Position numbers and translations under genes: made by a program. A model generated the notes under the pieces. The model was not told the origin of the DNA. It did not search any database and was given only the letters and a program-made list of their open reading frames with translations. This document shows, one piece after another, positions 30,701 to 62,788 of a stretch of DNA of 64,000 bases (positions are counted from its first letter, which is position 1; each line of letters opens with the position of its first letter). This stretch comes from Tetmemena sp. SeJ-2015 (Eukaryota > Ciliophora > Spirotrichea > Sporadotrichida > Oxytrichidae), in contig JAJKFJ010021871.1 of NCBI GenBank assembly GCA_027382625.1, positions 1 to 64,000 of the forward strand, written 5' to 3'.

Positions 30701-32700
30701 AAACTATGTGATAGATGAAATTGGAAAATTCTTCGTAGAAAGCCCATCAGTGACTATGGAAGTCGTGTATAGTGACACTGACGTGAAGACTCCTTTGATT
30801 TTCGTACTAAGTCAAGGGAGCTGACCCTACTTCTCTACTAATTAAGTTTTCCAAAGATAAAGGCTTCGGTGAGAAACTAAATGTGATATCGCTTGGGTCA
30901 AGGTCAGGGTCCCAAAGCTGAAGCTCTTATCAAAGCCTCGAAGAAAAATGGAGAATGGGTTATGCTCCAAAATTGTCATCTAGCAAAGTCTTGGATGCCC
31001 TCTCTGGAAAATATTGTCATCAACTTTGCAGGAGAAGAAGCAGAGATTCACAACGGTAAGACAAGTTATTTGCCTTATATAAATTTATAGATTTCAGACT
31101 TTACCTCACCTCTATTTTACTATAAACAAATAATAATTCTGAAGCATACTCTATGCCTGCGGACTATTTCCCTGTTTCTGTCCTTCAAAATGGTGTGAAG
31201 TTGACAACTGAGCCGCCAAGAGGTTTAAAGGCAAACCTTAAGCGTACCTACTAAGATTTTAATGAAGGAACCTTCAACGAATCAAAGAAGCCAGAGACCT
31301 GGAAAAAGCTACTCTTTGGCCTGTCATTCTTCCATGCTATTATTCAAGAGAGAAGAAAGTTTGGTCCCTTGGGTTGGAACATTAGATACGAGTTTAACGA
31401 TTCCGATCTTGAAACGTCAATTACCATGCTGAAGATCTTCTTAGACGAGCAAGAGGAAATTCCCTGGGATGCTCTGCTCTATGTGACAGGACACATTAAT
31501 TATGGAGGCAGAGTCACAGATGATTGGGATAGAAGATGCTTGATAGCTATGCTAAAGAAATACTACAACATAGATATCCTCGAGGATGGATATAAATTCA
31601 GTGAATCGGGCATTTACTTCGCACCTTCATTCGGCCCATTAGACATCTACAGAGACTACATTGAGACTCTACCTTTGATTGATAATCCTGAGGTATTTGG
31701 CCTGCATGAAAACGCTAATATCACCTACCAAAATCAAGAGTCAGACAAGATCGTTGCTACTATTCTCTCAATCAACCCGATTAAGCATAGCTGCTGGAGG
31801 CTAAACTCCTGATGAGATTGTGAAAGAGAGAGCAAAAGAAATTAAGAAGATCCTACCTGCTTTGCTAGATAAGACTCAAGGCAAAAAGGATATGTTCATC
31901 ATCTCTTCTTTAAATTTAGCCATATGTTTAAGCCAGACAAGCAAGGCTTGATAAGCTCACTTAGTACTGTGCTCCTTCAGGAAATGCAAAGATTCAACAG
32001 ACTTCTAACTGTTATGAGAAGCTCAATCATTAATCTCAAGAAAGCCATCAAGGGATTCATTGTTATGAGTGAAGAGCTTGACTCTATGTATGTGAGCATT
32101 CAAAATAGTCAAGTACCCAAGAACTGGGAGAAGGTTGCTTACCCATCTTTAAAACCTCTACCAACGTGGTACAAAGATCTCCTAGAAAGAGTAGCTTTCA
32201 TGCAAGACTGGCTTGTTAATGGTGCACCTAACTCTTTCTGGCTGTCAGGTTTCTTCTTCCCTCAAGGCTTCATGACCGGCTGTCTCCAAACTCATGCTCG
32301 TAACTACAAGATTGCTATCGACAAGCTTTAGTTCTCTTTCCAAGTGATGTTAGAGGAGGAGCCTGGAGAAGTTGAAGAGCCACCTGAGGACGGAGTTTAC
32401 ATTTACGGTTTGTATATGGATGGCGCTAGATTTGATCGTGAGACACAAACCATCGCAGATCAGTTCCCTGGTGAGATGTATTCTAAGATGCCACTCATTT
32501 GGTTCAAGCCACAAGAGGATTACAAACCTGACCCTGAAGAATACAGCTGCCCTGTTTATAAGACCTCAGTGAGAGCAGGAGTTCTCTCTACTACCGGTCA
32601 GTCAACCAACTTCATTATTGCAGTAGAACTGTCAACTAAGGATCTGCCTCGCCAATGGACATTAAGAGCTGCTGCTATGCTGTGCTAGCTCAATGACTGA
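18705..32700 (+). CDS. axonemal dynein heavy chain 1 (unscrambled, many IESs)
   Basis: Motor subunit of a ciliary dynein arm: ATP-driven sliding on microtubules. The start ATG at 18705 opens a Gln/Ser-rich N-terminus. The tail runs to about 22 kb and the linker to about 23.9 kb. AAA1 has GPAGTGKT near 24280, AAA2 GPTGGGKT near 25145, AAA3 GYTGVGKS near 26265 and AAA4 GVGGSGK near 27420. The stalk coiled coil lies at about 28.15-29.1 kb, followed by AAA5, AAA6 and a full C-terminal domain ending at TGA 32698-32700. Every MDS is in genomic order. At least 17 pointer-bounded IESs and one clear GT-AG intron (31056-31090) interrupt it. Five to ten single-base frame breaks, mostly at homopolymers, lack pointers and look like assembly errors. 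The long C-terminus and tail fit an inner-arm type, but I cannot fix the isoform. Confidence 0.93.
20919..20948. other. IES, 30 bp, pointer TACTT
   Basis: TACTT at 20919 and 20949. Excision joins EALANIY to [11 protein letters not shown] in frame in the dynein 1 tail. Confidence 0.9.
21972..22003. other. IES, 32 bp, pointer CATC
   Basis: CATC at 21972 and 22004. Removal converts a frame break into [18 protein letters not shown]. Confidence 0.9.
23193..23226. other. IES, 34 bp, pointer ATTTTC
   Basis: ATTTTC at 23193 and 23227. Excision gives the conserved dynein linker reading [19 protein letters not shown]. Confidence 0.95.
23581..23613. other. IES, 33 bp, pointer AGGGTAT
   Basis: A 7 bp repeat at 23581 and 23614; excision restores [19 protein letters not shown]. 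Confidence 0.93.
24852..24874. other. IES, 23 bp, pointer AATC
   Basis: AATC at 24852 and 24875. Excision restores [20 protein letters not shown], a highly conserved part of the dynein motor. Confidence 0.95.
25239..25267. other. IES, 29 bp, pointer AG
   Basis: AG at 25239 and 25268. Excision gives [20 protein letters not shown]. Treating it as a GT-AG intron would leave a TGA stop, so the IES reading is preferred. Confidence 0.75.
25804..25846. other. IES, 43 bp, pointer TCCAT
   Basis: TCCAT at 25804 and 25847; excision joins QQVISI to [10 protein letters not shown] in frame. Confidence 0.92.
26112..26131. other. IES, 20 bp, pointer AGG
   Basis: AGG at 26112 and 26132. Excision gives [20 protein letters not shown]. 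The alternative GGTTT alignment would break the frame. Confidence 0.85.
26323..26338. other. IES, 16 bp, pointer AAAGA
   Basis: AAAGA at 26323 and 26339. Excision restores [19 protein letters not shown]. It is the shortest IES I can support in this window. Confidence 0.88.
26392..26422. other. IES, 31 bp, pointer TA
   Basis: TA at 26392 and 26423; excision gives [20 protein letters not shown], in frame. Confidence 0.8.
26833..26925. other. IES, about 80-90 bp, pointer not resolved
   Basis: The conserved reading breaks after DEAVL and resumes at [14 protein letters not shown]. The insert is A-rich, and several 2-base repeats (TA or AT) would restore frame, so the exact ends are uncertain. 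Confidence 0.6.
28113..28135. other. IES, 23 bp, pointer ATCAA
   Basis: ATCAA at 28113 and 28136; excision gives [20 protein letters not shown] at the base of the stalk. Confidence 0.92.
28866..28886. other. IES, 21 bp, pointer AAAGAT
   Basis: AAAGAT at 28866 and 28887. The insert is a multiple of three with no TGA, so it is invisible as a frame break. Excision gives [17 protein letters not shown] in the stalk coiled coil. Confidence 0.75.
29174..29202. other. IES, 29 bp, pointer AGTCA
   Basis: AGTCA at 29174 and 29203; excision joins GIYRQSLV to SKWVTGCLG. Confidence 0.9.
30308..30338. other. IES, 31 bp, pointer AGAAG
   Basis: AGAAG at 30308 and 30339; excision gives [20 protein letters not shown]. 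Confidence 0.92.
31056..31090 (+). other. spliceosomal intron, 35 nt, in dynein 1
   Basis: GTAAGA at the 5' end and TATAG at the 3' end. Removal joins EAEIHN to DFRLYLTS in frame, with no flanking direct repeat longer than chance. Confidence 0.85.
31110..31148. other. IES, 39 bp, pointer CTCTAT
   Basis: CTCTAT at 31110 and 31149, only 20 bp after the preceding intron; excision gives [18 protein letters not shown]. Confidence 0.93.
31890..31921. other. IES, 32 bp, pointer ATATGTT
   Basis: A 7 bp repeat at 31890 and 31922; excision gives [18 protein letters not shown]. Confidence 0.92.
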
Positions 32701-35163: not shown

Positions 35164-35297
35164 ATTATGCCTAATAAATGTAACTAGACTATTTTTCTAA
35201 ATTACGAATTTATCGAAGGTGGTATGACAATGTTTAAAATGAATGTGTGGATCTTAAACACTTAGATTCAGGAACTAGTGATTTGTTAATTTAATAA

Positions 35298-35947: not shown

Positions 35948-36181
35948 AGAATGAGAAAGAAAAAGACACTTGATTTTAACCAAAATTGTTCTCAAATGTT
36001 CATGATATGGTAAAGAATAAATTGAGAAGTTGTTATTCCTTATTATTTTGCTCTATCTAAGTTTACTACTTTAAGGAGATCTATCTTATAAAATTAGAAA
36101 AGTAAATATAGAGAATAATATCCTTATAATTTAAGCAAGATATAAAAATTTCAGTACTCTCTCTAATCCGATATACTTAAA

Positions 36182-43915: not shown

Positions 43916-44080
43916 CAGATATGAAATAACAAAGAGAAAGATCTTCCTTAATATCAAAATTATTGGAGTTGATTAAAGTGTGAAATTATATTTGAATATG
44001 AAGCATTATTTTAATATAAAAATCCAGTTTCCTTCGTAAAATTTCTATCTCCACTTTTATAGAATTCAAACCCTGCTAGC
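43916..44080. other. convergent intergenic gap
   Basis: 165 bp of AT-rich DNA between two convergent stop codons; no feature recognised. Confidence 0.5.
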
Positions 44081-45364
<1,284 letters not shown>

Positions 45365-45523
45365 TTTATTTAATTCAATAAGTTTATAAAAATCAGATCG
45401 GAGTTTCTATTTTTGCAATCAACTTTGGCAAGAAGTAATGAGCATATCAGAATTTTAATTTTGCTACTCACAGCATCAACTACAGAATAGCATTAAGATG
45501 ATATGGAATAACTACTTACTCTT
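45365..45523. other. spacer between MORN gene start and dynein 2 block 1
   Basis: 159 bp with no coding signal; it must hold the 5' leader of the MORN gene and the end of the germline-limited DNA next to the dynein pointer. Confidence 0.5.
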
Positions 45524-48500
45524 ATCTTTGAAAGATTGGGTGAGGTCCTTGAAGTTGTAATGAGTTTCTTCTAATCCAAGCAACTTGTGGAATATAGCCT
45601 CGCTCACAAACTAAAAATAGGAAAGGGTAATATTTATGATAGATATATAAACTCGATATCTTTGTCGTAGGCTGAGAAGTCTGTGGCTGAACCTCTTAGG
45701 AAGAAGTTCCACTCGTCGATTGAAATGGCGTTGCTTCTCCTCAAAATGGAAGAGGCATTCAAGAAAGCGTAGAGAAGCTTGTCCTTTTCAAAGAGACCTC
45801 TACAGATGTTGATGAAGAAGGACTCGGTCACATCATGGATGAGGATGCTAAGACGTCTCTCTAATTCATTGCTCTTCTCAGATTTGTCGAGACGACGGTT
45901 GAAAAGTCTAGAGAAGAACTCAAGCGAGTACTGATACATAGGGTCTATCAAGGCCAAGTCAGCAATAACGAAATAGAGCACTGATCCTCTACGTGCGACC
46001 ATACGATACTTCTCTCTGTTCTCATTAATTAGAATAGCTGTTTGCTCGGCTTCAACCATTCTCTCACTGATAGCAATAGAAGTCAGTTTACTTGAAGTAA
46101 ATGAATGTAATAGATATATCTCTGACTTTGATCGAGAGTGATAATGAGTTCTTCATCCTCAAGGATATCTCCTGAGGCTTCACTGACTAACTTGAGAATC
46201 TTATCTTCAAGTTCCTTAAGCTGGCGCTTGAAATCACTAAGTTACACCACTAGGATATCTTTTTGCTGCTCTAATTCTGGTTGCTCGTATTTAACCACAT
46301 CCACAAGTAATTGATCTTCTAGACCCTCTGGAGTCACAGTGAAGTTAATGATTGTAACCTTGATACAAATTTCTGGCAAGTAATGAGGGTTAGCAAGCTT
46401 TGTGGTGATGAAGAATTTAAAGTCGTTAGAGTAAAAAAGACTTGTTTTATGTGCATTTGAGTATGGAACCCAGTTATCTCCGAGTCTTATGACCATTTAG
46501 CCTGCTTGCTTAATGATGTTCTTTTGGAGTAGGGGTTCAAGAGAGGGATCTAGAGTCTCATCTATGTTTTCAAGTAGAACTGGTTGTCCCATTCTTATGC
46601 CATTCTCTACGATTTGGAGGAACTTAGGATTTGAAAGCTTGATTACTTGCAAAGAAAGATTAATATGATGACACTTAAGACTATTTACAGTTGCATGTTG
46701 TTCTCTTTCTCCATGCTCTTGATCCACTTGTTTCCTTGAGACTGGGGATCAATCATCAGAGGCCATCTCTTTGCCTGAGTCACGATGATTCCATTTTCAA
46801 CTGACAGGTTATCTGCAGGGAGACCACAGATGTTCCACTCTCTGATCTGCACTGGATCACCAAGTACATTCTCATAATGAAAAACAAATGCAACAATCAC
46901 TTATCTCAACTGTGAAGTCATGTGAGAAGGGGATCTTCTTGGCTTTGCAGAAGTCCATCCACTCCTTCAGCAGACCATCTCTGTACTTAGCTGTGAAGGT
47001 ACCTACATAAGAGATATATCCTGCTGCTAGTACAATGTTTCCAATCAGGTTCACCAAGTCAACTTCCAGAACCTTCACTGACTGGGCCCAACGCTTAGAT
47101 TCATCTGCTAGACCGACCACAAGCTTTTCAGCTCTTCCCAGTTGGATCTCAATCTTTTCCTTCTGTCTAGTCAGGTCTTCTAATTTTCTCTGGGAAGCAG
47201 AGTAGTTAGCTTGTAGAGCAGCGATCATGTCTCTGATCTTTTACAGAGAACCTTGCTTCACTCTTAGCTCATCCTGAGCCACCTTGAGCTCTCCTTCAGC
47301 CTTGCCTAAGGCTTCCTGCTTAGGCTTGATGATCTTCAGTACCTCAGATTAAATGTACGCTCATGCATTTATTGAGATATTTTAAAGAATAGTTATCAAT
47401 AGCTTTACACCAGAGACAGATGCTCTTACCAGCTTGTGATTTCTTCTCAATGAGAGCTGGGTTGAATTTGGGATCGGTGGTGTATTTCTTAAGCTTCTTG
47501 AGTTTAGACTCCTTGATGTTGTCCTTATTGAAACCCTTAAGCATGTTGATGAAGTTTTCTGGGTTATTCATCAACTTCTTACCCTCATCCCAATTCTCCT
47601 TGGTGTCCATCAAGAGACACACGGCAGAGATAACCAGCACCAAATCATCAGGTGGCTTGGGGTAAGACTTCATTTCAATGATATCTCCCTTATTCAGAGT
47701 ATCAAGAGCAGCAAGTGCTTCTCTGTAGATTGGCATGGCTTTTGCAAGCTCGCCCTCGCAATCAGTCTTAATTACCATGACCTCATTGAAGAGTTTCTGG
47801 GTTTCAGCCTCTTCCTTCTCTGAGATTTTCTCTTGCTCAGCTGCGATCTTCTGTTGCTTCTCAAGATCTACCACTAGCTTCTGAGTCTCTTCTTCTTTGC
47901 GATCAATCTCAGGACGTAGTTTAATGAGCATAGCCTTCAAGTCATCTACCATCTTGTTAGTCTCTGCAAGTCTGGTAAGACCTCCCTGATAACGGGAAAT
48001 CTTCTAAGGCACTATACCTCTCTAGGTCTTAAGCATATCGATGTAAGTCTTTATCAAATCCAGATAAGAAGTGGGAGTGGTGTAGTTTCTTCGACGCAGC
48101 TCAGAGAAGTATTTTAATAAGCTAATAAACTACATGGAAAATATTTCTCGGATGAGCTGCTGACACTGTTATGGATCTCCACGGACATTTGGCACAATAA
48201 AAATCTCAAAATGAGTTGAGAGTTTTGTAAAAGGTAGTAATTAAATGAGTCCATGTACTCCTGAATGCCAAGAACTGCTTCAAACTCACTGTACTGTCTG
48301 TGAGCGACAGAGTAAAGAGCTTCTGATGGCCATGGGTTGTACCAATCAATAGTACAGCAGTTAAAACATCTAAATTTGAATAATAAGAAAAAGTTTATGA
48401 TGCTAGGGAATTGTCTGCATCTGTTTCTGAATTGCTCTCCGACTGGGGAGAAGGCAAGCACGATATGCAAGTTCTCTCTGCAAAGTTGAACGAAGTAGGC

Positions 48501-51500
48501 ATATATTTGATCTCTATTCTCTCCAACTTTAGCATCTCTTGCTTTAGGAGCAAGTTCATCGCAAATTTGGGCTTTTTCTTCAGCTGGGAACAAATTTGGT
48601 ACTTCTAAATATTACATCTATCATCTTTTTATAAGTATCTCCAGAGTTCAGAAGATTGTTGATGTCTTCAAGGAAACTTTCCTTAACAATTTGGGTATCA
48701 CTGAAGAGGAAAACTTGTGGCTCGTTCTCAACACCACTCTTCATTAGCAGTTTCTTGATATCCTCGTGGAATTCCTTTTCTCTGTAGTTCTTTGCGATTT
48801 CGATTGAGAAACTCTTCATTGAATTCATGCTAGCAGCAAGCCTAGCCATGGATCTACGACCAGAACCACCGACTCCGACTAGAAGAGAGTTACCTCTCTG
48901 CTGTCTCAAGACTCTTGAAATACGAGCCAGATGCTGGATACAGTCTGAGAAGAACACTAAGTTCATAGGAGGGTTGTCTGAGTTGTACAGATCAAGGCAC
49001 TCGTCCAAACGAGGAATCAGGACGTTAGTCTCTCCTAGTTTGAGATACTGCTTTTCTCCGTTCTCAAAGTCTCCAAACAGCACATCTTAATAGTCTTTGA
49101 GTTGCCATTCCATATCTAGGTTCTGCTCAAGAATTTCATGCACAAGGATGTTAAACTTGGACCTGTCTTTCTCGTCAACTAATCTATCACGGAAGACTCT
49201 GTAGGTCTCGTGCACCCACAAGTACACCAAGTATTCCTTATTCTCAAGGTTCTCTAAGTTTATCATTAGCATGCCTTGTACAACCTTGGACAAGTCACGC
49301 AAGTTGAAGGTGTAATGACTCTTTGTTGGAGTAGGGAGGAAGTCCTTAATCCATATAATTAGCATCTATACTCTCTTATAAAATACTTAATGGTCTTGAG
49401 ATAAATATCGACAGAGGCCTTGATGATTGGCTCAGCGAAGATGTTGAGACCGCTTTACTCATTCTGGTCCAAGAATCCCTTAAGAATAGCTGTGAAGATA
49501 GTTCTCATAGAGTTGGCTGAGAGATCAGGCACCCAAATCATATTGAAGTGTCTAAACAGCCTAGGAGTAACAGCATTTCTACCACCACCTGGAGGTGCGC
49601 AAGCGCACACAAACTTCGTATCCTTAATTTACTTGAAAATAAGTTTCTTAGTGTCATAGAAACCAGTAGAGTCAATAGTCTGTCTCAGAAGCTTCAATAG
49701 AAATTAACCAATAGTTATGAAGAGCTCGCATGGTGGTTGAGAACCGTATGTATCAAGTTGAGGCATATTCACATCATCAATGAAGAAGATCATCTTCTTT
49801 CCTCCGGGCGGGCCCAGCAAAGTCTTTCTCTTAGCTTCAAGGTTGCCTTCGAAGGCGTCTTAAAGATTCTTTGTGGTTGTCTTTCCTGAGAAATTGACGA
49901 ATGCATACACTATATCGTCAGGAGTGGTGAACAAGAAGTCCTTAATGATAACTGATTTTCCGACTCCAGTTTCTCCAGTAATCAAAACATTGTGGCCGTT
50001 GAACATTAAGGTCTTCAAGACAAACTTGTACTTGACAGTATCCGAGGTGGGCACTAGAATTTCGAAGAAGGACTTGTTAGGATCGAATTCGAAAGATGGG
50101 ATTTGTTCCATCCATGGCTCGAACTTATGAGTTGATTAGTCGATACCATACTCGAAAATATCTCCATCAGGGAACTCTGGCATGATCTTCACAATCTCAT
50201 TTTTGAAGGCTTGTGAGAAAAGCTTACGAGAATTATCATGCAAGTTTGCTCCCAAAGACCAAATCATGGAGAATACGAGATAAGTGAGTACTACTTTTTC
50301 AGGATAGATAGTGATCTTCTTGATATCTAGCACTTCAGGATTCAAGAAAGAATGGATCATCTTAAGGCAAGATCCAACGAGATTTACGTTTGCTGACTCA
50401 ACCATTTCCTTGCACTCTTCTCTAATCATTTATTAAAAAGCAATATCAAAAGCATCGAATCATTGGCAAAAGCTTGCCGAAAATTGTCTTAACGTGCTTG
50501 ATAATAGTATCAAGATGGTTTGCTGGGATGATATCTACCATGTTTTCTTTCCAAGTGTCAATAAGAGGCTCCCATCCGAGATGTACTGGCTCCAAGTAGA
50601 CCATACCGCATCTAGACACAGTAGCTGGAGAGGCTACTCTTAAATCTTAGACTTCAAACATCATGGTGCAAGTCTCTGGCATCTTAATTCTCTGTCCGTT
50701 GGCCAAGCAGAGCATTTTGTTATCGTCCAACACTGTATTCATGTTCTCAATCCAAAGAGCATCGACTGGTCCATCGAAATTGATCCAACGCTTTTAGTCT
50801 GGCTTGTCTCCTTCAAGTGCTTCCACAGCGTCTTTCACAAGACGAGAAACCAATCCTTCAGTCCACTCATTAGTGAAAATGTTACAATTAAATCTTGCTT
50901 GTCGACTTTTGAATACAAATTTCATTATAGTTTCTCCAAAGAGTTCTCCCATAGTGACGGCCTTAGGATTTAGAGTATCGATGTGCACTGACTTGTACCA
51001 AGGATCTTTAAGACCCTCTCCGTGAAGTTGAGCTAAAGCCTTAGCGAGAATCTTGCAGCAAGTAGTTTTTCCTGTACCTGTTAGGCCGACAAGCATGACT
51101 CCATGTCTGACCATCATAGTCTCTAGGAGTTGAATGATCTTCTTAACATACTTAGGTGGCACTTGGTACTTCTTGACTCTCAATTGGTTTTCAATAGCAA
51201 CTTGAAGCTGACCATAGTCAATGAATGGCACATTAACACCTGGGAAGAGATCGTTAACGATTCCCTCGAATAAGGGCAAGTCGTGCTCCAAGAACTTTGG
51301 CACGTTAGAATCTCTCATGGCTCTGATAAGCACGATGTTCTCTTCATTCTCAGGGAACTTACGTCTCAGAGATCCAGCCATGACCAGCACTGACTTGACT
51401 GCTCTCATTCCGAAGTCATAATGATCTTGCTTGGATAGCTGCTCTGAAGAAAGCTTGTACAGCTGGACCATTTTACGTGCTAACTCGTCAGCAGTTTCGA

Positions 51501-54500
51501 ATCCTTCAGAGAAGAGAATGATCTAGGCGATAAGACGATAGTCGGGGATCATCATAGATATAGGTCTGAAGAGAGACTTCAAATTATCGGGCAGCTCAGT
51601 ACGACCTGCATAACCAGGGTTCATAGTGATGAATACTCCAAATCTCAAATTGAGAGGAATCATCTTTTCATTGAATTCGAATTCAGTCTTCTTGGCTCTG
51701 ACTGCAGATTGAATGGTGAGGATTTGCTGAGCAATGACAGACAACACTTCGATATCGATACGATTGAACTCGTCAAAGCAAGCCCAAGCTCCTCCTTGAG
51801 AGAGACCTGAGAAGAATCTTCCCATCATTTTGTAGTCAAGACCATCGGAGCAGTTGAACACCACGCATTGAATGGCTAAAGCCTTTGCAAGATCCTTAGT
51901 TGTTTCAGTCTTGCCTGTACCAGCTGGCCACCTTTGTGGGAAATTTTTACCTAAATATTAATAAGCACCAGTAAGAGTCATATAGCACTTATCAGTGAGG
52001 GGAGTGATCACAAGTCTTGGTCCGTTTCCAAGATACTCATAACCATAGGCGAATCTGGTGTTAGTCTGTCTGGCAAAGCAGTCGTCCTTCTCTTCTTCTT
52101 ACTCCCAGTAGTATCTGAGTTGTCTAGTCCACTCGAAGTCATTGACACTTTCTACTCTTGCCTTAATCATGGATCTCACTACGTCTCTTGCGTGGATGTC
52201 TATACAATGAGAGCCCCATGACTGATCTCTCAAGTCTGCTAAGTTGACCTCTAACCAACTCAACCATTTTGTTGATCTAGAGAATTGAGAAGTTGAGGAA
52301 CCCTTCAAGGGCCTTCTTATCTTTACCTCTTGTAATTTCAGCAAGAGCATCAGTTACTCCATTTGTCCACTTAACTTGATCGATTGTTATAACAGGTTGA
52401 GCAGGGTAAGCAAACAGCCATTCGTTTCTTTCAATTCCATTAACTGGATACTCCACAAGTGCTCTCTTTGTGGTATCATAGAGTGATTTTACCATCATGC
52501 GCTCGATATTCATCAGCCAAAACTCTACATTACCTTCTGCAAACACTGACTCAGAGAAAGTTACGTATTCTTACTCAGCAGACCACATTCCAATAATCTC
52601 TTTGGAACCCTTTTCAGATTCTATGAATTTACTCAATTCTTCATGATGTTATCAAAGCACTTTCTCAAGTGAGGCTGCACAGCATGGGCATTTCTAGTTT
52701 GAGAGAGGATTTCAAGCAGCTCATCATTTGACAAGAAGTAGAAACGAGGGAAGGCTCCTCTCTTTGTCTCAAGGTAATCCTCAAGAGACTTTTAGATATC
52801 TTCGAGAGTCTTGTTAGCATTCTAGAATTTAGAGAGAAGGGCATCTGATGAGCAGGCGTCCAGGATGAGTGGAGACTTCTTGGTTCTCATCATGACATCA
52901 CGCCAGAATTTATCAACTTGCTGGAAGAGCTTAGCTTCGTTGGGTAGCTGCTTTTGGATATCTTCAGCATTGAAAATGTTTTCCAAGTACATCCATAATA
53001 GAAAATTATATTGGATTATTATTTCCACTGTCTTTGGAAGGTAAGCCACTCATCGATGACATCTCCGATGTAGCCGAGCTTCTTTTCCCATTCCTCAACT
53101 TGAGCTCTGATCTCAGTGACGTGCTTGCTGCCCATCATAGTACCAATACTCATCTGGTGGTCTTCCAATTGAGTGATGGTGTCTTCAATCTCAGCAATGA
53201 TGAATCTATCCTTGGTGTCTCTGTAATTGAGAACTGTGAATTGAGTGTCTCTCCAGATGGCAATGATGTCGTTGAGGGTTTGCTCAATTGTGGCTTCTCC
53301 GGAGGCCATAGCTGAAATCTCTTCTATCTTCTCGAAGTGCTGGTCGATTCCCTCAGATAGTAGCAGTTACTAGAAAGAGAATTGTCTGAGGTTAGTAGGG
53401 GGAGCACCCTCCAGCAGACCAAATATCTTGTTCCAATGTCTTGGCAACATGTTCCTGTTTCCCAAGGCACTGATGAGGTTGCAGTGTTGTGAGACCATCT
53501 TGACTTCAGTGGTAAGCTATTCAAGCACTTCATCCTTAGTGTCTCTAGGGAGCTGCTGCTTCAGAAGTAGGTTGTCCTTCTCGTAGTCCTTCACAGTTTG
53601 GACGATGTCTTGTGCATCAAGATCCACGAAGAAGTCATAGTACCAGTGTCGACTCAAGTCGGCAAACTTCTCTCTGTTGCGCCAGAGCTTGTGTCTCACT
53701 TCGAACTTCTTGGTGAAGTCTTCAATCTCCTTGATACCAGATGGGTTGATCTCTAGGATCTCCTAGTAGCTCTTGTAAGTGTTGAGTCGCTTCACAGAGT
53801 CGTCAAACTTCTTCTTGATCTTGCTTAACTCTTCAAGTGCTGTATTGAAGGGAGTACTCTTGCTCATAAGAGACTCACTGGTCAGTTTCTCAACATGGCC
53901 TGTAATCTTCTCCTTCTCCTCGTTGATCTTCTTGTCCAAGTCCTCGATGTTTTGCTCCTTCTGCTCTGCAATTTAGCCTTCAGCTGAAGCGATGAGGGAT
54001 TCAACTTCGTTGATGTTCTGGACTATGATTTCCAACTTTTGGAGAAGCAGTTAGTGAGAAGCGTTGAAGTGCTGCTCGTCCTTGGATTTGTAGCGTCTCA
54101 GCACTACGTTCATCTCTTCTAGTTTCTTTTTCTCATCCACCAAGTTATCCTTCTGGTTCTTGCACATCTTGAGTCCGTGGACATAATCGACGTAAGTGGC
54201 TAGTGGGAACTAGGGCTTAGCAAGGGCTACCTTTATTCTCTCAAATCCCTTTATGATGTCCTTGGACTTCTGGTCAGCCAAGTCGAACAGGTATTGCTTG
54301 ATGTTGGTCTGCTCGTCCTTCACTCTCTTAGAGAGTCTATCTCTGAGTTTCTTTCCTTGAATGTTGATGAAACCTTGGACATAGGCTGTCTTGATGTTCT
54401 TAGTGATCCTTGGTCCCATTTCTGAAGTCTTTCGAGCCAGCTTCTGATGGTGTCTAGGTCGCTGTTTTGCTTTGAACTCTTCAAAGTCGAAGGTCTGGTC

Positions 54501-56594
54501 GAAGTCATTGACTTCTCTGCAGTTCTCTATCTTGCTACATCTCCTGAAAGGTCTTTGAAGTCTTGATCTATCTTTTGCTGGATGGCCTCTTTGGTGACCA
54601 TGTACTTGAATGAGGTCTCGACTATGTGGCGGAATTTAGGGCCTGAGTCGCTGATGAGTCCTTGGATGAACTGGTTGAAGTTAGGATGTGTGATTGTTCT
54701 CACAACCTCAGCTGTCACACTTAACATGTCTTGGAGGATCTTGTCGAACTGAGTGAAGAACTCGTTCTTTGTAGGGTTGAAAGAGAGTCCGTTCTCTTTG
54801 GTGTCATATATAAGATCGCTGGAAAGAAAAATGGATATAATCATAAGAGACAGTAGTTTGGATGTTATACTTTTGGGCCTTGCTCATTTCATAGAGGATC
54901 AAATCAGCACTCTCTTGGTTTATCTTCACTTGAGTCTCGACCACCATGTAGTCTACGAGACGAATGAAGGTTCCCAAACTGTGGTAGTTACGCTTGGCTA
55001 GTCTCAGTACTCTGCTCTTCAGCTCATCTTCTTGCTTCTGGAGTACCATAGACTTGTTCTTGTCTGTTGACCCATTTTAGCGTGCTCAAGTCCTCCTCTT
55101 CCCTGAGGGTTCTGGACTCACTCACTAGGGAGACAAGGGTGTCGAGCTTCTTGATGATCTCCTCCACCTTGTCGTTGTAGTGCTGCTTCACCATCTCTCT
55201 CTCATTCTTCTGCTCTCTGAAGAAGTCCTCTAGTTCAAACTGCTTGGCAGTAACCTTGGGAACGATGAAGGTTTGGAGGGACTTCATCTCAAAGAGAGTC
55301 TTGTTGATCTCCATGTAAGAGGATAAGAAGGCAGGGCGAGAGAAGATCAAGTTGCGAGCGAGGTTCTATCTGGTGCGGTTGTACATCTTGAATCTAACGT
55401 TGCCTTTCCAAGAGTTGAAGACCTTGCCGATAAGGTAGTGCTTGAAGAACTTCATAGAAGTGAGGACGTTAAACATGGTAGACTGTTGCATCCAGTCACT
55501 GAGGGAGAAGAATTCAGTGGGGACTACATCTTGCTTGATTTGGTTGCCCATACCTCCATGGTGAGGACCTCTCTTGTTCTTATCAGGGCAAATGTGCACT
55601 ACTCCTTGAGCTGAAATGGTGAAGTATTCATCTCTAAGGGCTTTCTCATCAATCTGGACCACTAGATCGTAGGGTCTGAACATCTGAGGAGGTACAGGAG
55701 ATCTGTTGCAGTTCAAAAACTTGATTGGAGTGCTGTTGCCGTGTTGAGCAAAGAAGGAGATAGCCTGCTCTCCAGACTTGATCTTGATTAGCATTTCGTA
55801 GATAGGTGTGCCTCTCCTAATGAAGTTTGCAGTTCTTGCTTGCATGGCTTTATTCTTAGACTCGTCTTCGTTGTTCTCAATAATTTGTCTGAACTCATCG
55901 AAAGAGATGACTGGTTAGCTTAGTCGTCTTCTTCCTATAAAAATGGGTTAGAATTCTTAGTAAAGATATGGTTTTAAATTTATTTGAATAATTATGGAAA
56001 GCATATTGGAGCGAAACCCCATAACTGTCGACATAGAAGAATCCATTAAGAGCTTTATAATGCTCTGGCTTTGTAATATTTTATTAGTTGTGCAACTTAC
56101 CCCATAGCCGTCCATGTCTGGGTTCATCTCTTCGTCCATTTCGTCGACTTGTCTCATGCCACCCATGTCTTCCTCCATTTCGTCAATGGGGTGTTCTTCA
56201 TCATAAGAACCTCCAGCGCCTGTTCTTCTTCTCTCAGACTGGCTCTTCTGCTGAAGTGGAGGCAGCTGAGTGGCGTTAATGATGCCCGAAGAGGCTTTGT
56301 GCTGGCCATGCTTTGGCACGGAAGCTTGTTGGTTAGCCAAGATAGGTAGAGAGTACTCGGCCAGTTCAACATCAGCGTTGAAGTGATACAGACTCTTGTA
56401 GTACGATCTGTCTTGCTTTGAAGATGAGGCACCCATCGCAAACACGTTTGATGAATGGCCTCCGGTTCCTGGGGCAGCAGCTCTGCCGCCGCCTTTTAGT
56501 GAGTAGCTAGCTTTCTAAAGAGAGGTTAAATACAAGTTAAGAGGGGAATAGAGAGGGAGGTTACATTAGCTTGCGTAGAATCTTTGTTATTCAT
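45524..56594 (-). CDS. axonemal dynein heavy chain 2, scrambled block 1 of 3 (N-terminus to AAA6)
   Basis: Start codon at 56594 (MNNKDSTQ). The N-terminal region is Gly/Ala-rich then acidic, with tail and linker to about 52.1 kb. AAA1 lies at about 52.0-51.5 kb (Walker A reads WPAGTGKT, see findings), AAA2 has GLTGTGKT near 51080, AAA3 GETGVGKS near 49970 and AAA4 GVGGSGRRS near 48870. The stalk coiled coil lies at about 48.1-47.05 kb, then AAA5, then the start of AAA6. The block ends within [11 protein letters not shown] at the pointer GAT (45526-45524), so about 700 C-terminal residues are missing here; they lie on the opposite strand at 61093-62628 and 56754-57405. At least 15 IESs interrupt it. 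It is a divergent paralogue of dynein 1. Confidence 0.93.
45608..45648. other. IES, 41 bp, pointer AGTTT (minus strand)
   Basis: Excision joins SAYDKDIE to [15 protein letters not shown], the last junction before the scrambled jump. Confidence 0.92.
46090..46124. other. IES, 35 bp, pointer AAGT (minus strand)
   Basis: Excision gives [20 protein letters not shown]. Confidence 0.9.
46429..46458. other. IES, 30 bp, pointer TACTC (minus strand)
   Basis: In-frame insert without TGA; excision gives [18 protein letters not shown], matching dynein 1 and other dyneins. Confidence 0.85.
46647..46690. other. IES, 44 bp, pointer TGCAA (minus strand)
   Basis: Excision gives [17 protein letters not shown]. 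Confidence 0.92.
46870..46903. other. IES, 34 bp, pointer TGAGA (minus strand)
   Basis: Excision gives [20 protein letters not shown]. Confidence 0.93.
47346..47385. other. IES, 40 bp, pointer TCT (minus strand)
   Basis: Excision gives [20 protein letters not shown] at the stalk. Confidence 0.85.
48110..48141. other. IES, 32 bp, pointer AAATA (minus strand)
   Basis: Excision gives [20 protein letters not shown]. Confidence 0.92.
48198..48227. other. IES, 30 bp, pointer TTTTA (minus strand)
   Basis: In-frame insert without TGA; excision gives [20 protein letters not shown]. Confidence 0.72.
48360..48392. other. IES, 33 bp, pointer AAC (minus strand)
   Basis: In-frame insert; excision gives [20 protein letters not shown], the canonical dynein AAA4 reading also seen in dynein 1. 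Confidence 0.88.
48604..48637. other. IES, 34 bp, pointer AGA (minus strand)
   Basis: Excision gives [19 protein letters not shown]. Confidence 0.9.
49345..49385. other. IES, 41 bp, pointer ATTAAG (minus strand)
   Basis: Excision gives [18 protein letters not shown]. Confidence 0.93.
49690..49722. other. IES, 33 bp, pointer AGCT (minus strand)
   Basis: Excision gives [19 protein letters not shown]. Confidence 0.88.
50424..50457. other. IES, 34 bp, pointer AATGATT (minus strand)
   Basis: Excision gives [20 protein letters not shown]. Confidence 0.93.
52992..53023. other. IES, 32 bp, pointer TGGA (minus strand)
   Basis: Excision gives [20 protein letters not shown]; dynein 1 has an IES four codons away in the same motif. 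Confidence 0.93.
54816..54840. other. IES, 25 bp, pointer GAT (minus strand)
   Basis: Excision gives [19 protein letters not shown]. Confidence 0.85.
55936..56100 (-). other. intron with a possible internal IES in dynein 2 N-terminus
   Basis: On the minus strand this starts GTAAGT and ends TATAG between MDGYG and EEDDQAN. The 8-mer TATGGGGT also occurs twice, at 56099-56106 and 56016-56023 (minus-strand reading), and would define an 83 bp IES across the 5' splice site. One single-base break downstream is unexplained. Confidence 0.55.
56508..56566. other. IES (pointer AAGCTA) or GT-AG intron near the dynein 2 start
   Basis: Both readings stay in frame: a 59 bp IES with 6 bp pointer gives [15 protein letters not shown]; a 50 nt GTAACC to TTTAG intron gives [18 protein letters not shown]. 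Confidence 0.75.
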
Positions 56595-56753
56595 TTGAAT
56601 GACTTTCAAAATTAATTGGATTATAATAAGAGCCTCAGATCCCACTAAATACTCCTACTAGCCTCCCCTTTTTTTCTTTTAATTAAAAAGGGTCCTTTAA
56701 TTATTTCAAATAAATTTTAAACCTTTCCCCTTTTTTTCATTTAATATTTTTGC
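56595..56753. other. head-to-head spacer between dynein 2 block 1 and block 3
   Basis: 159 bp of A/T-rich DNA between the start codon (minus) and the pointer that opens the last block (plus). It should hold the 5' leader of the macronuclear gene. Confidence 0.6.
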
Positions 56754-57405
56754 ATCGAGGGTACTGTGGTTATGTCTATGGAACTTGAGATGATGTTCAA
56801 CAACTTCTTGAACAACAAAGTGCCAGAGGGATGGGTGAAAGTAGGTTATCCCTCTTTAAAACCTCTATCTTCCTGGGTGGTAGATATGATCCACAGAGTG
56901 GACTTCATTGGAAAATGGCTCTACCAGGGTCCACCCAACACTTATTGGCTACCCGCTTTCTTCTTCCCTCAAGGTTTCATGACAGCCACTCTCCAGCAGT
57001 ACGCCAGAAAGACACAGACGCCTATTGATACTTTGGCTTTCAAGACTCACGTAAAGGAGTTCTTGAGCAAGAAGTGAAGGATCCCCCTGAAGATGGAGTA
57101 AACATCCACGGCCTGTTCTTGCAAGGAGCCAAGTGGGACTTTAAAAAGAAGATGGTTGAAGATTCAGACCCTAAGCAACCAATTATTAAGATGCCAGTCA
57201 TTTGGCTCGAACCAGTCATCGACAAAGACGTCCCAGAGGAGAAGGTTTACTTCTGTCCTCTCTACAAGACATCAGTCAGAGCTGGAGAACTCAGTACCAC
57301 CGGCCACTCTACCAACTTCGTGCTCTTCCTCTTCCTGTCTCAGAGGTTCCTCAAGACTATTGGATCAGAAGAGGAGCTGCCTTGCTCTGTATGACTGATG
57401 ATTGA
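56754..57405 (+). CDS. dynein heavy chain 2, scrambled block 3 of 3 (C-terminus)
   Basis: Opens with the pointer CATCGAGGGTA (56754-56764), shared with the end of block 2 at 62618. It encodes TVVMSMELEMMFNNFLNN, then the conserved dynein C-terminal domain ([67 protein letters not shown]). It ends LLCMTDD with TGA at 57403-57405. Two single-base breaks (about 57053 and 57325) have no pointers and look like assembly errors. It lies in opposite orientation to, and 160 bp from, the start of its own gene. Confidence 0.93.
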
Positions 57406-57756
57406 GCAACGACCAAAAATGTGAGCTCACATATGCATTTAATCTTATTCTTATATTAAATTGAGCTTTGGATTCGCATTCCTCAGGTACTCACAAACTT
57501 AAACCGATTATTTAGTCCTCGAGATTAAAATCATAATCCTCCCTAAAATATCTCTTACTCTATAAGTGATCTCCAAGATTCACAGTGAGCAGATGCCTTA
57601 TTACTCAAGTTCAATTCAATTTAAAAACTTTCACCCCCACTCTTATAGTTTATATTTTAATAGCAAATAGTAAGCTGCTTCTAAGTTATAAAATATGAAT
57701 TCAAAACTTTTAAAATTTGAGTATGAGAGAGAGAGATAAAATTAAAAATGCCCTCT
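57406..57756. other. gap between two stop codons (dynein 2 block 3 and K+ channel block 2)
   Basis: About 350 bp of AT-rich DNA holding the 3' ends of both genes; no further feature recognised. Confidence 0.5.
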
Positions 57757-59480
57757 TCAAATGTTGTTGATATTGTTCTGCTGCCTATGATTTTGAAGAC
57801 TAAATTCTTAGATATCTTCAATGACTCCATTGCCCTTAATTATTTAGAGATCTAGCTTTGAGGACTCCCTCTTTTTTTTAATGGTCTTGGACTGTTATAA
57901 TTTATTTTTAAGGGTTTTTCTAATTTTAAACTTTAAGGGAGGGTTAACTATCCTCGCCCAGTTGCTTTTTTAATTTCTCCAACCTTAAATGGATATGGTC
58001 CCCATCGTAAGGAGAAAACATATTTTCAAAAGTTTATATTGCAATGAAAGAAATCATGAAAATTATAAGGAGAAGGAGGGTCTTTAATGTAATTTTACTG
58101 CAAAAGCCTGAAGTTTTGTTGAGATTAATTGTAGGGGTTATTAGTTGCAGGCTCTTGTTTCCTCTCTGGGCTGGGAGACTTATTTTTCTCTAGCAGATTT
58201 GAAAATTGCTTTATACTCTATCCTCCTCTTTTATGCAAAGACAATTAATTCTAATAACCTTTCAAAGATTAAATTATACTGCACTTGTTCGTCGGTCTGC
58301 ATTCTTTGAATGGGCGCAATGAAGGATGGATGATGGGTTTAAGTTGCAGTCTAAGGGTGAATCTAACTCTTGCCTTGGTAGAGATAGAAAGTGCTTGGCG
58401 ATTACTAGAATAAGGTTTTTTATTAAGAGTTGAAGTCATGCTAGAATTTCTTAGGGTACTAAGAGTTCGAGCTGATAGTGTTCTGATTAGAAATAACCTA
58501 GTTCAGAGTAAACTGGATACTATATAATTTAAAAATGAGATTATCAGAACATATTTAGGCGGCAGTGCTTTGAAAGGAGAGCCATAGATATTGTCCAAGT
58601 AAATCTTCTCAGCTTCTTAATTCTCTAGTTTAAGTTGAAACTAGGCCTGCTTTTTCTTTTGCAATTATTGAATACTTTGTGCATGACTAGTGACGTCAGA
58701 GGATAATTTAGTCCGCACTAAATTCATGAATAAGATTTAGCATTTAGTTCTTACATTTGAGAAACTTTTGTCCAGGGCTGTTGGGGTCCATCCTATTTAC
58801 TATCACCGAAAAGATCTTCATGTTATTCTACACCTCTCTCAACCTCTCTAAGTCTTTTCTTTGCTCGGCTAGTAGCGCTTTCGTACTTTGGTCAATTATC
58901 TTTAGCTTATCCAAAAAGAAGGAAACTTTAAAAGAAAATATGGTCATGATCATAATACACATTCTAAAACTTTGGCCAAATCATTTTCTACCTTTTCCGT
59001 CATTTGCTTTATCTTCTCATTCTCAGCTAGCTGTTCTATTTTAAGGTTGTATCTAGCAGCCTAGAATTGCAAAATCTTCTCCCTTAGTTTGAGCTCATAG
59101 TTGATTTTAAGCGTTCTTAACTTTGCCTGTTCAGGACTCTCACTTAACTGAATCTCCTGAAGTGGGTCATGTAATAAATACATTCACTCACTTTAATTAG
59201 CTCATGTTGGTTTATACTCTAGAGATGCTGCACATGCAAATAGTGAATGGCATTTGCTAGATCTCTGAGTCTCTTTTGCGTATGCCAGTTGCAGAATGCA
59301 TACTCAAGCACTTCTTTGGCCCTCCTCCTCACGTTTTGTTTTATTTTCATTCGATATATTATATTGAAAGCCTAAACCAAAGTGAGATTTACTTAATCTT
59401 AGCCTTACATATTGCTCGTTGCTCTTGAACTTCTTCACATTGTTTAGGGAAACTATTGACATCGAAATCAAGAACACTCC
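57757..59480 (-). CDS. SK-type K+ channel, scrambled block 2 of 2 (end of S6 to C-terminus)
   Basis: On the minus strand the block opens with pointer GGAGTGTTCT (59480-59471) and encodes the end of S6 (GVFLISMSIVSLNN). Next comes the calmodulin-binding-type region (YAFNIIYRMKIKQNVRRRAKEV, split here by an intron after Y), a coiled coil (IEQLAENEKIKQMTEKVEND) and a Gln/Ser/Pro-rich tail. The tail is coding through SPYDGDHIHLRLEKLKKQ (about 57.95 kb). The stop is TGA at about 57757-57759, or 57818-57820 if an unresolved frame change is not real. Three GT-AG introns and two IESs interrupt it. The reading matches block 1 exactly across the pointer. Confidence 0.85.
58008..58065. other. IES, 58 bp, pointer TTCTCCTTA (minus strand)
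   Basis: 9 bp direct repeat; excision gives KDPPSPYDGDHIHLRLEK in the channel tail. Confidence 0.9.
58718..58754 (-). other. intron, 37 nt, K+ channel block 2
   Basis: GTAAGA to TTTAG; removal gives GQKFLKLRTKLSSDVTSH. Confidence 0.75.
58923..58966. other. IES, 44 bp, pointer AAAGTTT (minus strand)
   Basis: Excision joins EKVENDLAKV to SFFLDKLKIIDQ in frame. Confidence 0.9.
59157..59191 (-). other. intron, 35 nt, K+ channel block 2
   Basis: GTGAGT to TTCAG; removal gives SINQHELIKEIQLSESPEQ. Confidence 0.8.
59372..59408 (-). other. intron, 37 nt, K+ channel block 2
   Basis: GTAAGG to TTTAG; removal gives VKKFKSNEQYAFNIIYRMKI. Confidence 0.85.
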
Positions 59481-59641
59481 TCAAATTCAACCCTAAATCT
59501 ATGAATAACTGAAGGTAATAAGAAATATGAGAGAGAAGTGTTTTATTATTCAGCCTTTCAGTTTATTAAAGTTGATGCTATGGTTCTATGATTAAAGGAA
59601 ATATGCGTTTAAGTACTTATTGATTAAATTTGAAGCTAAAA
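59481..59641. other. head-to-head spacer between the two K+ channel blocks
   Basis: 161 bp without coding signal between the pointer that opens block 2 (minus) and the start codon of block 1 (plus). It should carry the 5' leader of the channel gene. Confidence 0.6.
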
Positions 59642-61052
59642 ATGAATCCAACTGCAGGCGTAGTTCTTTAGAGGTTCGACAATTTCCTAGAAAGAGATAA
59701 AAAGATATCTCTCTCCACCCTCTATGAGAAGGATGGCAGTCTGATGCGCTAGAAGTCTCTGGGTGGAAAATTCAGTGGGGCTTTTGAGATGCGTAGCTAA
59801 TCTCTAAGAAGAGTTTCTCTTTATGAGTAAGAGCAAGATTTAGATCGACTCGTCAAGGAAGTCCACAAGCAAAGTCAAGATAGCTTTAAAATGACAGAAA
59901 GTCTCTCCGATTTAATCAAGAAAGATGATAAGAAAGTCAATCTTAAAGGAATGCGGATAGAAATGTTTGAGGTAAGATAATTAGCTTCTTCTATAACTTT
60001 AGAACCAAAGAAAAATGTGGATGAGTCTTTAAATACAAGAGAAATTTAGAGAAAAACTCAAAGTCAACATAGTATTCTCTGCCATCATAGCTATGATAAA
60101 TTATATAACATTATATTTGCTTCTCACATTTTGAAAATGATAGGATTAGTATGTGCCTATATTGACCTTGAGTTTTTGACACGATCCACTGCTTATAAGG
60201 AAATTTATGAAATGGATTAGACGAATTTCTACCTCTGATTGTGTCAGTCTATATCAACTGGCCTCCTCTGTAATTTTAAAAAGAATTCCTAATTCATAGA
60301 TTATAGTGATTTTGATCTTCAGACAATCTAAAATGCAATTCTATTTCATGAGAGAGAAGAGGAAAGTTCTGGCTGAAGGTAATAACTCCTAATCTTAGGT
60401 GATAACATTCTTTCGAATAGTTGGCTATTACTGATCAAAGTACTTCAAGTATCTAGTCCTTGAGGTGATGGTTTGCTTTCCTCATAACCCGCCTCACTTT
60501 GACCCTCTCTTCAGAGCAGATCAGCTCGGAAAATAGCTAAGATATTCTCTTAGTGCATGCATAGCCGCCTATATGATGTTCAGATGCTACTTGCTTTTCA
60601 AAGTGTATGCGAGATTCACTAAGTTCAAAAGCTCACTGGCAGATAGGTAAGAAATATTTTTGCTTGAAATTTATAGGTGTTGCGCGAAAATTGGAACCGA
60701 AGCAACCACTATCTTTGCCCTTAAGAGCTCTTTTAAAGAGAGACCTTTTATAGTTTTAGGTTATGCTTTGACTATAAGTGTGGTAGGAATTGGAGTTGTA
60801 CTCAGATAATTTGAGAGGTAATGTTTAATTCCTTCTAAATAATTAGACCTTATTATGATGATCTGCACCCTTTAAGTTGAAGATATAAGATAAGTTTCCT
60901 AAAAAATTTTTTCTAAAAAATCAATTCTTTCTTATAATGAATAAATTGATTTAGCATAATCACAATGACGACTGTGGGTTTTGGAGATTTTTACCCGAAG
61001 ACACACATGGGTCGCTTCATTATGATTCTAGCTTGCTTCTGGGGAGTGTTCT
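59642..61052 (+). CDS. SK-type K+ channel, scrambled block 1 of 2 (N-terminus to S6)
   Basis: Small-conductance, calmodulin-linked potassium channel by architecture. The ATG at 59642 opens a polar N-terminus. S1 is KVNIVFSAIIAMIGLVCAYI after removal of an IES. S3-S4 includes LVLEVMVCFPHNPPHFDPLF (the HPPP-like SK signature) and YMMFRCYLLFKVYARF. Then come CCAKIGTEATTIFALKSSFK and S5 (IVLGYALTISVVGIGVVLR), the selectivity filter TMTTVGFGDFYP (about 60963-60998) and S6 (MILACFWGVF). The block ends at pointer GGAGTGTTCT (61043-61052). Three GT-AG introns and at least one IES interrupt it. The segment between S5 and the filter is short and lacks the usual Trp of the pore helix. It lies between two blocks of the dynein 2 gene. 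Confidence 0.87.
59972..60002 (+). other. intron, 31 nt, K+ channel block 1
   Basis: GTAAGA to TTTAG; removal gives GMRIEMFENQRKMWMSLQ. Confidence 0.8.
60093..60136. other. IES, 44 bp, pointer ATGATA
   Basis: ATGATA at 60093 and 60137; excision completes transmembrane helix S1 (SAIIAMIGLVCAYIDLE). Confidence 0.93.
60647..60676 (+). other. intron (30 nt) or IES with pointer ATAGGT
   Basis: GTAAGA to TATAG, but ATAGGT also flanks it directly at 60644 and 60674. Both models give the same product, SSLADRCCAKIGTEA. Confidence 0.75.
60818..60846 (+). other. intron, 29 nt, K+ channel block 1
   Basis: GTAATG to ATTAG; removal gives VVLRQFERPYYDDLHPL. Confidence 0.65.
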
Positions 61053-61092
61053 AAATATTTCTTATTGCATCTCTTTTTCCCCAATATTTTTT
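61053..61092. other. 40 bp spacer between K+ channel block 1 and dynein 2 block 2
   Basis: Germline DNA between the outgoing pointer of one scrambled gene and the incoming pointer of another; no coding signal of its own. Confidence 0.7.
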
Positions 61093-62628
61093 GATGCTGT
61101 GACCTGGAAGGACATTTTAAATCTGAGGATCCTCATTTGATTCCCCTTCCTTAGGCTTTCGAAGATAGATTGACAGCTTTCCAACGCCTTATGCTCGTCA
61201 AAGTCTTGAGAGATGAGAAACTAATCTTCGGAATTAAGGAATTCGTGAAGAGTGAGCTAGGTGACAAATTCATTGAAAGTCCTCCCTTTGATCTTATGGG
61301 AGCTTACTTAGATTCTATGAGTACCACCCCTATCATCTTAAAGCCAAAAAAGTAATTAAATCTTCGTTTTGTCTCCAGGAGCAGATCCTATCACATACTT
61401 GGTAAACTTGGCTAAGAGCAAGAATATGGAGAGCAGACTTAAGATTCTCTCACTTGGTCAGGGTCAAGGAAGAATTGCTGAGAAATTGATTGACGGAGGG
61501 CAAAGAGCAGGCGACTGGGTTTGCTTACAAAACTGTCACTTATCGGCTAGTTGGATGCCAGAACTTGAAAAGATACAGGAAAGGCAAGTCGAAGCTGAGA
61601 TGCATCCAGAGTACAGACTTTGGCTTACTTCCATGCCCAGCAGAACTTTCCCCGTCCCAGTGTTGCAATCAGGTAAACTTCTTCAATAGATCTTTAGTTT
61701 CTTAATGAATCCGATTATTTTGTCGATTTTGTTATATCAAGATCACTAATGAGCCTCCTAAAGGTTTGAAGGCCAACCTTAAGGGTACCTTTAACGAAGT
61801 TACCGAGGAAGACTATGAGTCTTGCACCAAGCCTCGCGAGTACAAGAAACTTCTTTTCGCCCTCGCCTATTTCCATGCTGTGATCTTAGAGCGAAGAAAG
61901 TAGGAGCCATCGGTTGGAACATCCCTTACGAGTGGATGAACTCTGACTTTGTTACTCAAAAAACCCCAGTTGAAGATGTATTTAAACGAACAGCCAGACA
62001 TTCCCTATGCTGCACTCAACTATCTTTGTGCCGAAGTAAACTATGGAGGTAGAGTCACTGACGATAAGGATATTAGACTCATCAAAGCCCTACTCAAGAG
62101 ATACTTCTGTGCTGAGATCATGAATGACAACTACAGACTCTCAAAGCTCGAGCACTACTACGCTCCTCATGAAAGCTCTCTTGCAGATGTTAAGAGCTAC
62201 ATCAACTTACTCCCTCTTAATTCAAACGAGTAAGAGTTTATTGACTTAGAAAGTGAGTATGCTTAATTTTAATACTCTTGAAGATGATCCTGAAGTATTT
62301 GGACTGCATCCAAATGCCAACATCACCTTCGAACAGAAGTTGGTAAGAGAGTTCATGGAGACAATTCTCATAATCTAACCTAGAATTTCCGGAGGTAAAG
62401 CAGTTAAATCCTCAGAAGAAATAGCCCAAGATATGGCTAGAGATATTGTGCATAGACTTCCTAAAAGACTAGACAAGAAGAAAGCTCATCCTATGACATT
62501 TGCGACTACCGATGCAGGTTAAATGCTCTCTCTTGGAGTTTTCGTTGGTCAAGAGATTGACAGATTTAACAAACTACTTTCAGTCATGAGGAACACCCTA
62601 ATCAATTTAGACAAAGCCATCGAGGGTA
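61093..62628 (+). CDS. dynein heavy chain 2, scrambled block 2 of 3 (AAA6 to C-terminal domain)
   Basis: Opens at pointer GAT (61093-61095) and continues block 1 as [12 protein letters not shown], then [20 protein letters not shown]. Conserved dynein readings follow: [62 protein letters not shown] and [19 protein letters not shown]. It ends in [10 protein letters not shown] at pointer CATCGAGGGTA (62618-62628). Three IESs interrupt it (61335, 61674, 62214). Single-base breaks near 61110, 61890 and 61965 lack pointers. Its orientation is opposite to block 1, so joining needs an inversion over about 15.6 kb of intervening sequence. Confidence 0.92.
61335..61359. other. IES, 25 bp, pointer ATCTT
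   Basis: ATCTT at 61335 and 61360; excision gives [19 protein letters not shown]. Confidence 0.93.
61674..61734. other. IES, 61 bp, pointer TA
   Basis: TA at 61674 and 61735 gives [18 protein letters not shown], matching dynein 1. A GT pointer would also stay in frame but adds a residue. Confidence 0.75.
62214..62274. other. IES, 61 bp, pointer CTCTT
   Basis: CTCTT at 62214 and 62275; excision gives [19 protein letters not shown]. Confidence 0.93.
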
Positions 62629-62788
62629 TTAAGAGTTTTAAATTTCCATAATTTAATTTAATTTTAGTAGCTTTAGTTAGTTGATTTTGTAGTTCTATGA
62701 AATTCAATTTAACTCTAAGCTTAGAATAATTAAGATTTTCTTTATATAGAGTGGAATAATTGAAGCACATTTAATATTCTTTGCTGGT

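Follow-up and report, generated by a model that had tools for sequence, protein, structure and literature searches.

The DNA considered here, termed the window, is the stretch 1-64000 of the 212,420-bp contig C2911 in the Tetmemena sp. SeJ-2015 assembly, which totals 146,216,379 bases in 5213 contigs. The window harbours a dynein heavy chain gene whose coding sequence is arranged in three disordered blocks. Genes in the window are readable when TAA and TAG are taken as glutamine (Gln), as they are in Oxytricha, Tetmemena and Stylonychia. A protein search with the first of the three blocks returned 171 hits, 120 of which were listed, and alignment of eight of these 120 to the window by tblastn, using the ciliate code, reveals two dynein heavy chain genes. 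One of these, gene A, is colinear and lies outside the scrambled gene, for which it serves as an internal control. The other, gene B, carries dynein heavy chain motor sequence and the C-terminal domain; a 682-residue open frame within its first block (50449-52494, minus strand) matches axonemal dynein heavy chain 6 with E = 1.6e-218, and the best solved-structure match of the same frame is DNAH6.

In the germline layout of gene B, block 1 is inverted and is followed by block 3 and then by block 2; the order in the protein is 1-2-3 (Table 1). This protein order is found with all seven of the aligned references that reach the C-terminus, the eighth (P0001) stopping short of block 2. Across the seven, minus strand matches to block 1 end at 45658-45697, plus strand matches to block 2 run from 61101-61158 to 62627-62648, and those to block 3, also on the plus strand, begin at 56748-56754. 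When the assembly was searched with the Dynein_C model, the domain was likewise split, with model positions 4-97 at 62343-62630, 94-199 at 56754-57068 and 200-291 at 57065-57337. The first residues of block 1 are without homology cover, matches beginning near 55.9 kb. The gene as a whole exceeds 11 kb, and two scrambled junctions were found in it. A preliminary description of the locus, made from the sequence alone, had proposed a three-block layout with an inversion, which the homology order bears out. The minus strand start which it gave, 56594, and the ends at 62628 and 57405 stand, the last agreeing with the stop codon TGA at 57403-57405, whereas the edges placed at 45524, 61093 and 56754 move to 45468, 61091 and 56753.

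Table 1. Features of the two dynein heavy chain genes in the window (IES, internal eliminated sequence).
Feature	Coordinates	Strand	Details
Gene B, block 1	45468..56594	-	tblastn and spliced alignment; first ATG 56594-56592 to junction 1
Gene B, block 2	61091..62628	+	through first third of Dynein_C domain, inclusive
Gene B, block 3	56753..57405	+	remainder of Dynein_C to stop
Pointer 1, block-1 end copy	45468..45479	-	TTGATGCTGTGA, 12 bp
Pointer 1, block-2 start copy	61091..61102	+	TTGATGCTGTGA, 12 bp
Pointer 2, block-2 end copy	62618..62628	+	CATCGAGGGTA, 11 bp
Pointer 2, block-3 start copy	56753..56763	+	CATCGAGGGTA, 11 bp
GT...AG intron directly ahead of pointer 1	45480..45519	-	40 nt; chosen with P0005, supported by P0121 alignment
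GT...AG intron in block 1	45603..45652	-	50 nt; chosen with P0005 and P0003
IES-like insertion, block 1	52996..53027	-	32 bp, repeat TGGA
IES-like insertion, block 1	50431..50464	-	34 bp, repeat AATGATT
IES-like insertion, block 1	49694..49726	-	33 bp, repeat AGCT
IES-like insertion, block 1	49351..49391	-	41 bp, repeat ATTAAG; intron according to 1/3 references
IES-like insertion, block 1	48607..48640	-	34 bp, repeat AGA
IES-like insertion, block 1	48363..48395	-	33 bp, repeat AACT
IES-like insertion, block 1	48115..48146	-	32 bp, repeat AAATA; overlapping intron preferred with 2/3 references
IES-like insertion, block 1	47349..47388	-	40 bp, repeat TCT; overlapping intron preferred with 1/3 references
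IES-like insertion, block 1	46875..46908	-	34 bp, repeat TGAGA; intron according to 2/3 references
IES-like insertion, block 1	46652..46695	-	44 bp, repeat TGCAA
IES-like insertion, block 1	46434..46463	-	30 bp, repeat TACTC
IES-like insertion, block 1	46094..46128	-	35 bp, repeat AAGT
IES-like insertion, block 2	61335..61359	+	25 bp, 5-bp repeat
IES-like insertion, block 2	61674..61734	+	61 bp, 2-bp repeat; with P0003, starts at 61673 and spans 58 bp
IES-like insertion, block 2	62214..62274	+	61 bp, 5-bp repeat
Dynein gene A	20103..32697	+	colinear; similar short insertions

Both junctions are marked by a short word, or pointer, present at each of the two edges concerned. Keeping one copy of each pointer at the joins leaves the frame continuous through both, one-base breaks remaining elsewhere in the gene. 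The trinucleotide GAT, earlier put forward as the first pointer, is ruled out in this role and replaced by TTGATGCTGTGA, which sits approximately 45 bp further on, past a 40-nt intron. Removal of this intron yields SFKDK-IDAVTWKD across junction 1, in frame with P0005 and P0121. Junction 2 is read in frame with P0005, P0003 and P0121; its shared 11-mer had already been recognised, with the copy at 62618 correctly placed and the other given as 56754, one base away from its actual position of 56753. The predicted C-terminus is identical to P0121 at 657 of 1067 positions (62%), with zero gaps at either join, such that the jumps do land where the dynein sequence continues, as had been claimed, and blocks 2 and 3 each match this protein at 61-62%. 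Reference residues overlap by just 3-10 positions at junction 2, as expected from a repeated word of about four codons.

The rarity of such words was estimated by shuffling. Using base-composition shuffles of 61-bp windows and 13 diagonals round the homology edge, the observed word was reached in 3 of 60000 trials at junction 1 and 7 of 60000 at junction 2; when dinucleotide shuffles of 121-bp edge windows were used and the word was allowed anywhere within them, the observed length was matched in 2 of 2000 and 49 of 2000 trials, respectively. Where edges that do not belong together were paired, the words in common measured 8, 8 and 7 bp in the three combinations compared. With the register fixed, both pointer words are rare among shuffles. 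A third copy of TTGATGCTGTGA lies in the window at 30546-30535 (minus strand), beside the corresponding part of gene A and on the opposite strand, and is taken as due to chance. Pointer 1 starts exactly at the end of the 40-nt intron (45519-45480), a position that may be of interest by analogy, given that introns of the DNA polymerase alpha gene are described as flanked by IES-like repeats in one report (PMC1805493).

An arrangement of this kind might be mimicked by two distinct dynein genes lying side by side, each without a part. Dynein genes are numerous in the assembly, with 70 Dynein_C match rows, and gene A is only approximately 13 kb from gene B; furthermore, the block-1 part has P0122 as its best hit and blocks 2 and 3 have P0121, though P0121 spans only part of block 1. 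However, the missing parts complement each other exactly, overlapping by the repeat only, and gene A is just 40-52% identical over its longer matches. The segments also behave as one gene in protein comparisons. A search with the predicted C-terminal 1234 residues gave 1267 hits at E <= 0.001 among 7975 scored candidates, of which 120 were listed. Among the proteins listed from this search and that with block 1 (120 each), 238 match some segment and 228 match all three, the order being 1-2-3 in 227 of these 228; across the same 228 proteins, the hit scores of the segments are correlated (Spearman 0.72, 0.66 and 0.77). A side-by-side pair of incomplete genes is consequently scarcely credible. 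A DNA search of the assembly with block 2, in which the best candidates only were scored, found no second copy of it. Its other DNA matches are short stretches of 68-78% identity on C3940, C3233 and C810, and the dynein genes on C3233 and C810 are colinear with it and 35-57% identical at the protein level.

Block 1 is a run of segments broken up by short insertions resembling IESs. Spliced alignment, whose hand-set scores admitted GT-AG introns, shifts of frame and deletions between repeats, placed 12 of these in block 1, each 30-44 bp long and 73-85% AT, with flanking repeats of 3-7 bp. Block 2 has a further three, measuring 25-61 bp. The census spans gene B from approximately 53.5 kb onward; further upstream, P0003 alone reached, skipping approximately 1.1 kb (54591-53452). 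Insertions near 50929 and 48250 were excluded from the twelve, as their repeats were 2-3 bp or their reading varied by reference. The corresponding survey of gene A skipped approximately 1 kb.

The assembly as a whole looks like a spirotrich-type germline (micronuclear) genome. At least 150 matches to the DDE_3 transposase were found at E <= 0.001 when the best 150 of 921 first-look candidates were scored, this domain being one of Tc1/mariner-type transposases. Exact three-unit C4A4 matches number 21, on 3 of the 5213 contigs, a count that is non-discriminating alone; the reversed pattern, with 28 matches, represents this tandem repeat too, shifted in phase. Spirotrichs are also known to scramble the gene for DNA polymerase alpha. 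Among 24 match rows to the DNA polymerase B family in this assembly, parts of the polymerase alpha gene lie on opposite strands of C1943 at 142525-142951 (plus) and 138675-138869 (minus), the broken gene being noted at 138850-142935, and the gene is likewise split on C4161, at 12884-12239 (minus) and 16380-16589 (plus). The best match of both split parts is DNA polymerase alpha. The two stretches are 97.8% identical over 9768 positions, as alleles might be, and on both contigs the 16 bp CTAACAGTATGTATGG, read by eye, is common to the two parts at the join TANSMYG/CLGF. Just the first part of the gene is present on C5004, and the main polymerase matches on C1785, C2982, C3228, C4405 and C3127/C3894 show no strand change. 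The inverted polymerase alpha gene with its shared 16-mer thus shows that gene B is not the only gene so broken in this genome; its presence on two contigs differing by about 2% argues that such structures are real here.

A second dynein offers a lead towards a further scrambled heavy chain gene. On C2873 (246439-258343), part of the C-terminal domain is displaced by approximately 11.6-11.8 kb, and the match positions on C807 indicate the same displaced arrangement. The 11-mers TTGACTCACTC and ACAGGACATTC are shared on C2873 where the protein seems to continue between the two places; a third 11-mer is shared without playing any evident part in a join, which shows that words of this length can also match by chance.

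Other genes neighbour gene B in the window. Those at 33593-37495 (plus), 43957-45174 (minus) and 63024-63995 (minus) encode between them two diacylglycerol-kinase-type catalytic domains, MORN repeats and an ABC transporter. A potassium-channel-like reading at 59640-61050 (plus), with a TVGFGDFYP motif recognised by eye, halts just ahead of block 2. The remainder of this gene was not found: the two open reading frames tested gave no Pfam match, protein match or other DNA copy, and no post-S6 motif was seen by eye in the six frames of contig positions 1-79999. The channel-like gene may be scrambled too.

Taken together, the locus is best explained, with a probability of roughly 0.92, as a micronuclear axonemal dynein heavy chain gene that is genuinely scrambled and programmed for unscrambling in the somatic nucleus. 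This was also the interpretation first offered, and it is supported by the homology order, the exact repeats at the joins, the alignment to P0121, the failure to find a second block 2 among the candidates scored in the assembly, and the hallmarks of a spirotrich micronucleus.

Several observations weigh against it. P0003 aligns poorly around junction 1, and the 40-nt intron was not chosen with this reference. The label of four of the 12 block-1 insertions, as intron or IES, varies by reference, under hand-set scores. Neither joined junction is present in the assembly at <=3 mismatches; with the somatic copy of the joins missing from it, and no same-species somatic protein among the listed matches (best local identity 68% with the block-1 query and 62% with the C-terminal query), unscrambling itself is something that we infer. 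One-base frame breaks remain in gene B, 7 over 10.1 kb with P0005 and 10 with P0003. Lastly, the assembly has at least one suspicious stretch, on C3316 (55137-57536), where two Dynein_C matches with equal scores mirror each other on opposite strands; it is either a palindrome or a fold-back artefact.

Some of these points would suit a rearranged pseudogene, in which two inversions at short chance repeats have left the gene permanently broken, with nothing to restore its order. Inversion between short inverted repeats would leave the same signature, a copy of the repeat at each broken end, the frame breaks fall in all three blocks, near 52638, 57060, 61120, 61895 and 61957 among other places, and neither joined junction was seen in the assembly. 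The frame breaks are nevertheless unspecific as evidence of decay: colinear gene A has as many, with 9 over 11.4 kb using P0007 and 10 over 8.9 kb using P0003, and each of the two genes shows approximately 0.7-1.1 breaks per kb. They therefore look like assembly noise, residual assembly error being their likeliest source. Moreover, all three blocks retain long conserved reading frames, blocks 2 and 3 are both similar to P0121, no second copy of block 2 was found among the candidates scored in the assembly, and an inversion likewise breaks a presumably essential gene, that for DNA polymerase alpha, in this genome. A pseudogene is accordingly very unlikely.

Alternatively, the pieces of a colinear gene could have been flipped and moved by a chimera of assembly or amplification. 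Amplification chimeras arise at short repeats, and the mirror-image pair on C3316 indicates that artefacts or palindromes do exist in this assembly. Yet both breaks would need to fall at exact continuation points with the repeat kept on each side, and the polymerase alpha inversion recurs on the two diverged contigs, which makes a chimera extremely unlikely.

If gene B is indeed a scrambled germline gene, two successive inversions would suffice, on the geometry of the locus, to restore it. During formation of the new macronucleus, excision at the small direct repeats would first remove the short AT-rich insertions. Inverting the DNA at pointer 1, TTGATGCTGTGA, would then connect block 2 to the end of block 1, and a further inversion, at pointer 2, CATCGAGGGTA, would bring block 3 into place behind block 2. 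The product would be an uninterrupted gene in which each repeat is left once. By analogy with published work on Oxytricha and Stylonychia, the joining would take place during development, RNA templates from the old macronucleus being the proposed guides. The same two inversions in reverse could account for the origin of the scrambled state. A tentative and somewhat doubtful extension is that scrambling of this gene began only recently: a long gene, otherwise ordinary and interrupted by short IESs, would have been disrupted by just two inversions, each at a repeat of 11-12 bp. Were this so, the locus would directly illustrate inversion between short repeats as the first step of scrambling, with a pointer that starts exactly at an intron end and in a ciliate whose DNA polymerase alpha gene is inverted too.

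Processes of this type have been described in related ciliates. In published accounts (PMC9797194, PMC2394655), the developing macronucleus joins germline segments at pointers once conventional IESs have been removed, and RNA templates are proposed to guide the process. Scrambled somatic chromosomes are reported to make up 4.2-29.2% in four spirotrichs (PMC10901763), and Tc1/mariner-type transposons to be abundant in Oxytricha (PMC9797194). Scrambling, and scrambled dynein genes, are thus already in print (PMC9797194), the locus described here being a new and clean example. Similarly to the scrambled genes of Oxytricha, Tetmemena and Stylonychia (PMC9797194), such as actin I (PMC2394655), gene B has blocks that are both disordered and inverted, with repeats at the junctions. 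Its pointers, 11-12 bp at scrambled and 3-7 bp at nonscrambled sites, fit the mean lengths of 9 bp and 4 bp, respectively, given in one such account (PMC2394655). Scrambled polymerase alpha of spirotrichs is a different gene from dynein, and its inverted counterpart is used here as a genome-level positive control. By contrast, the most scrambled gene of Oxytricha, as reported, is the dynein heavy chain gene Contig17454.0, with 195 scrambled junctions (PMC9797194), against only two in gene B. Given that gene and the levels of scrambling reported from spirotrichs, a dynein with two scrambled junctions is the kind of object to be expected. Gene B is a simple case, more than 11 kb long and lying beside a colinear family member, and the two genes together could be useful for tests of how scrambling begins.

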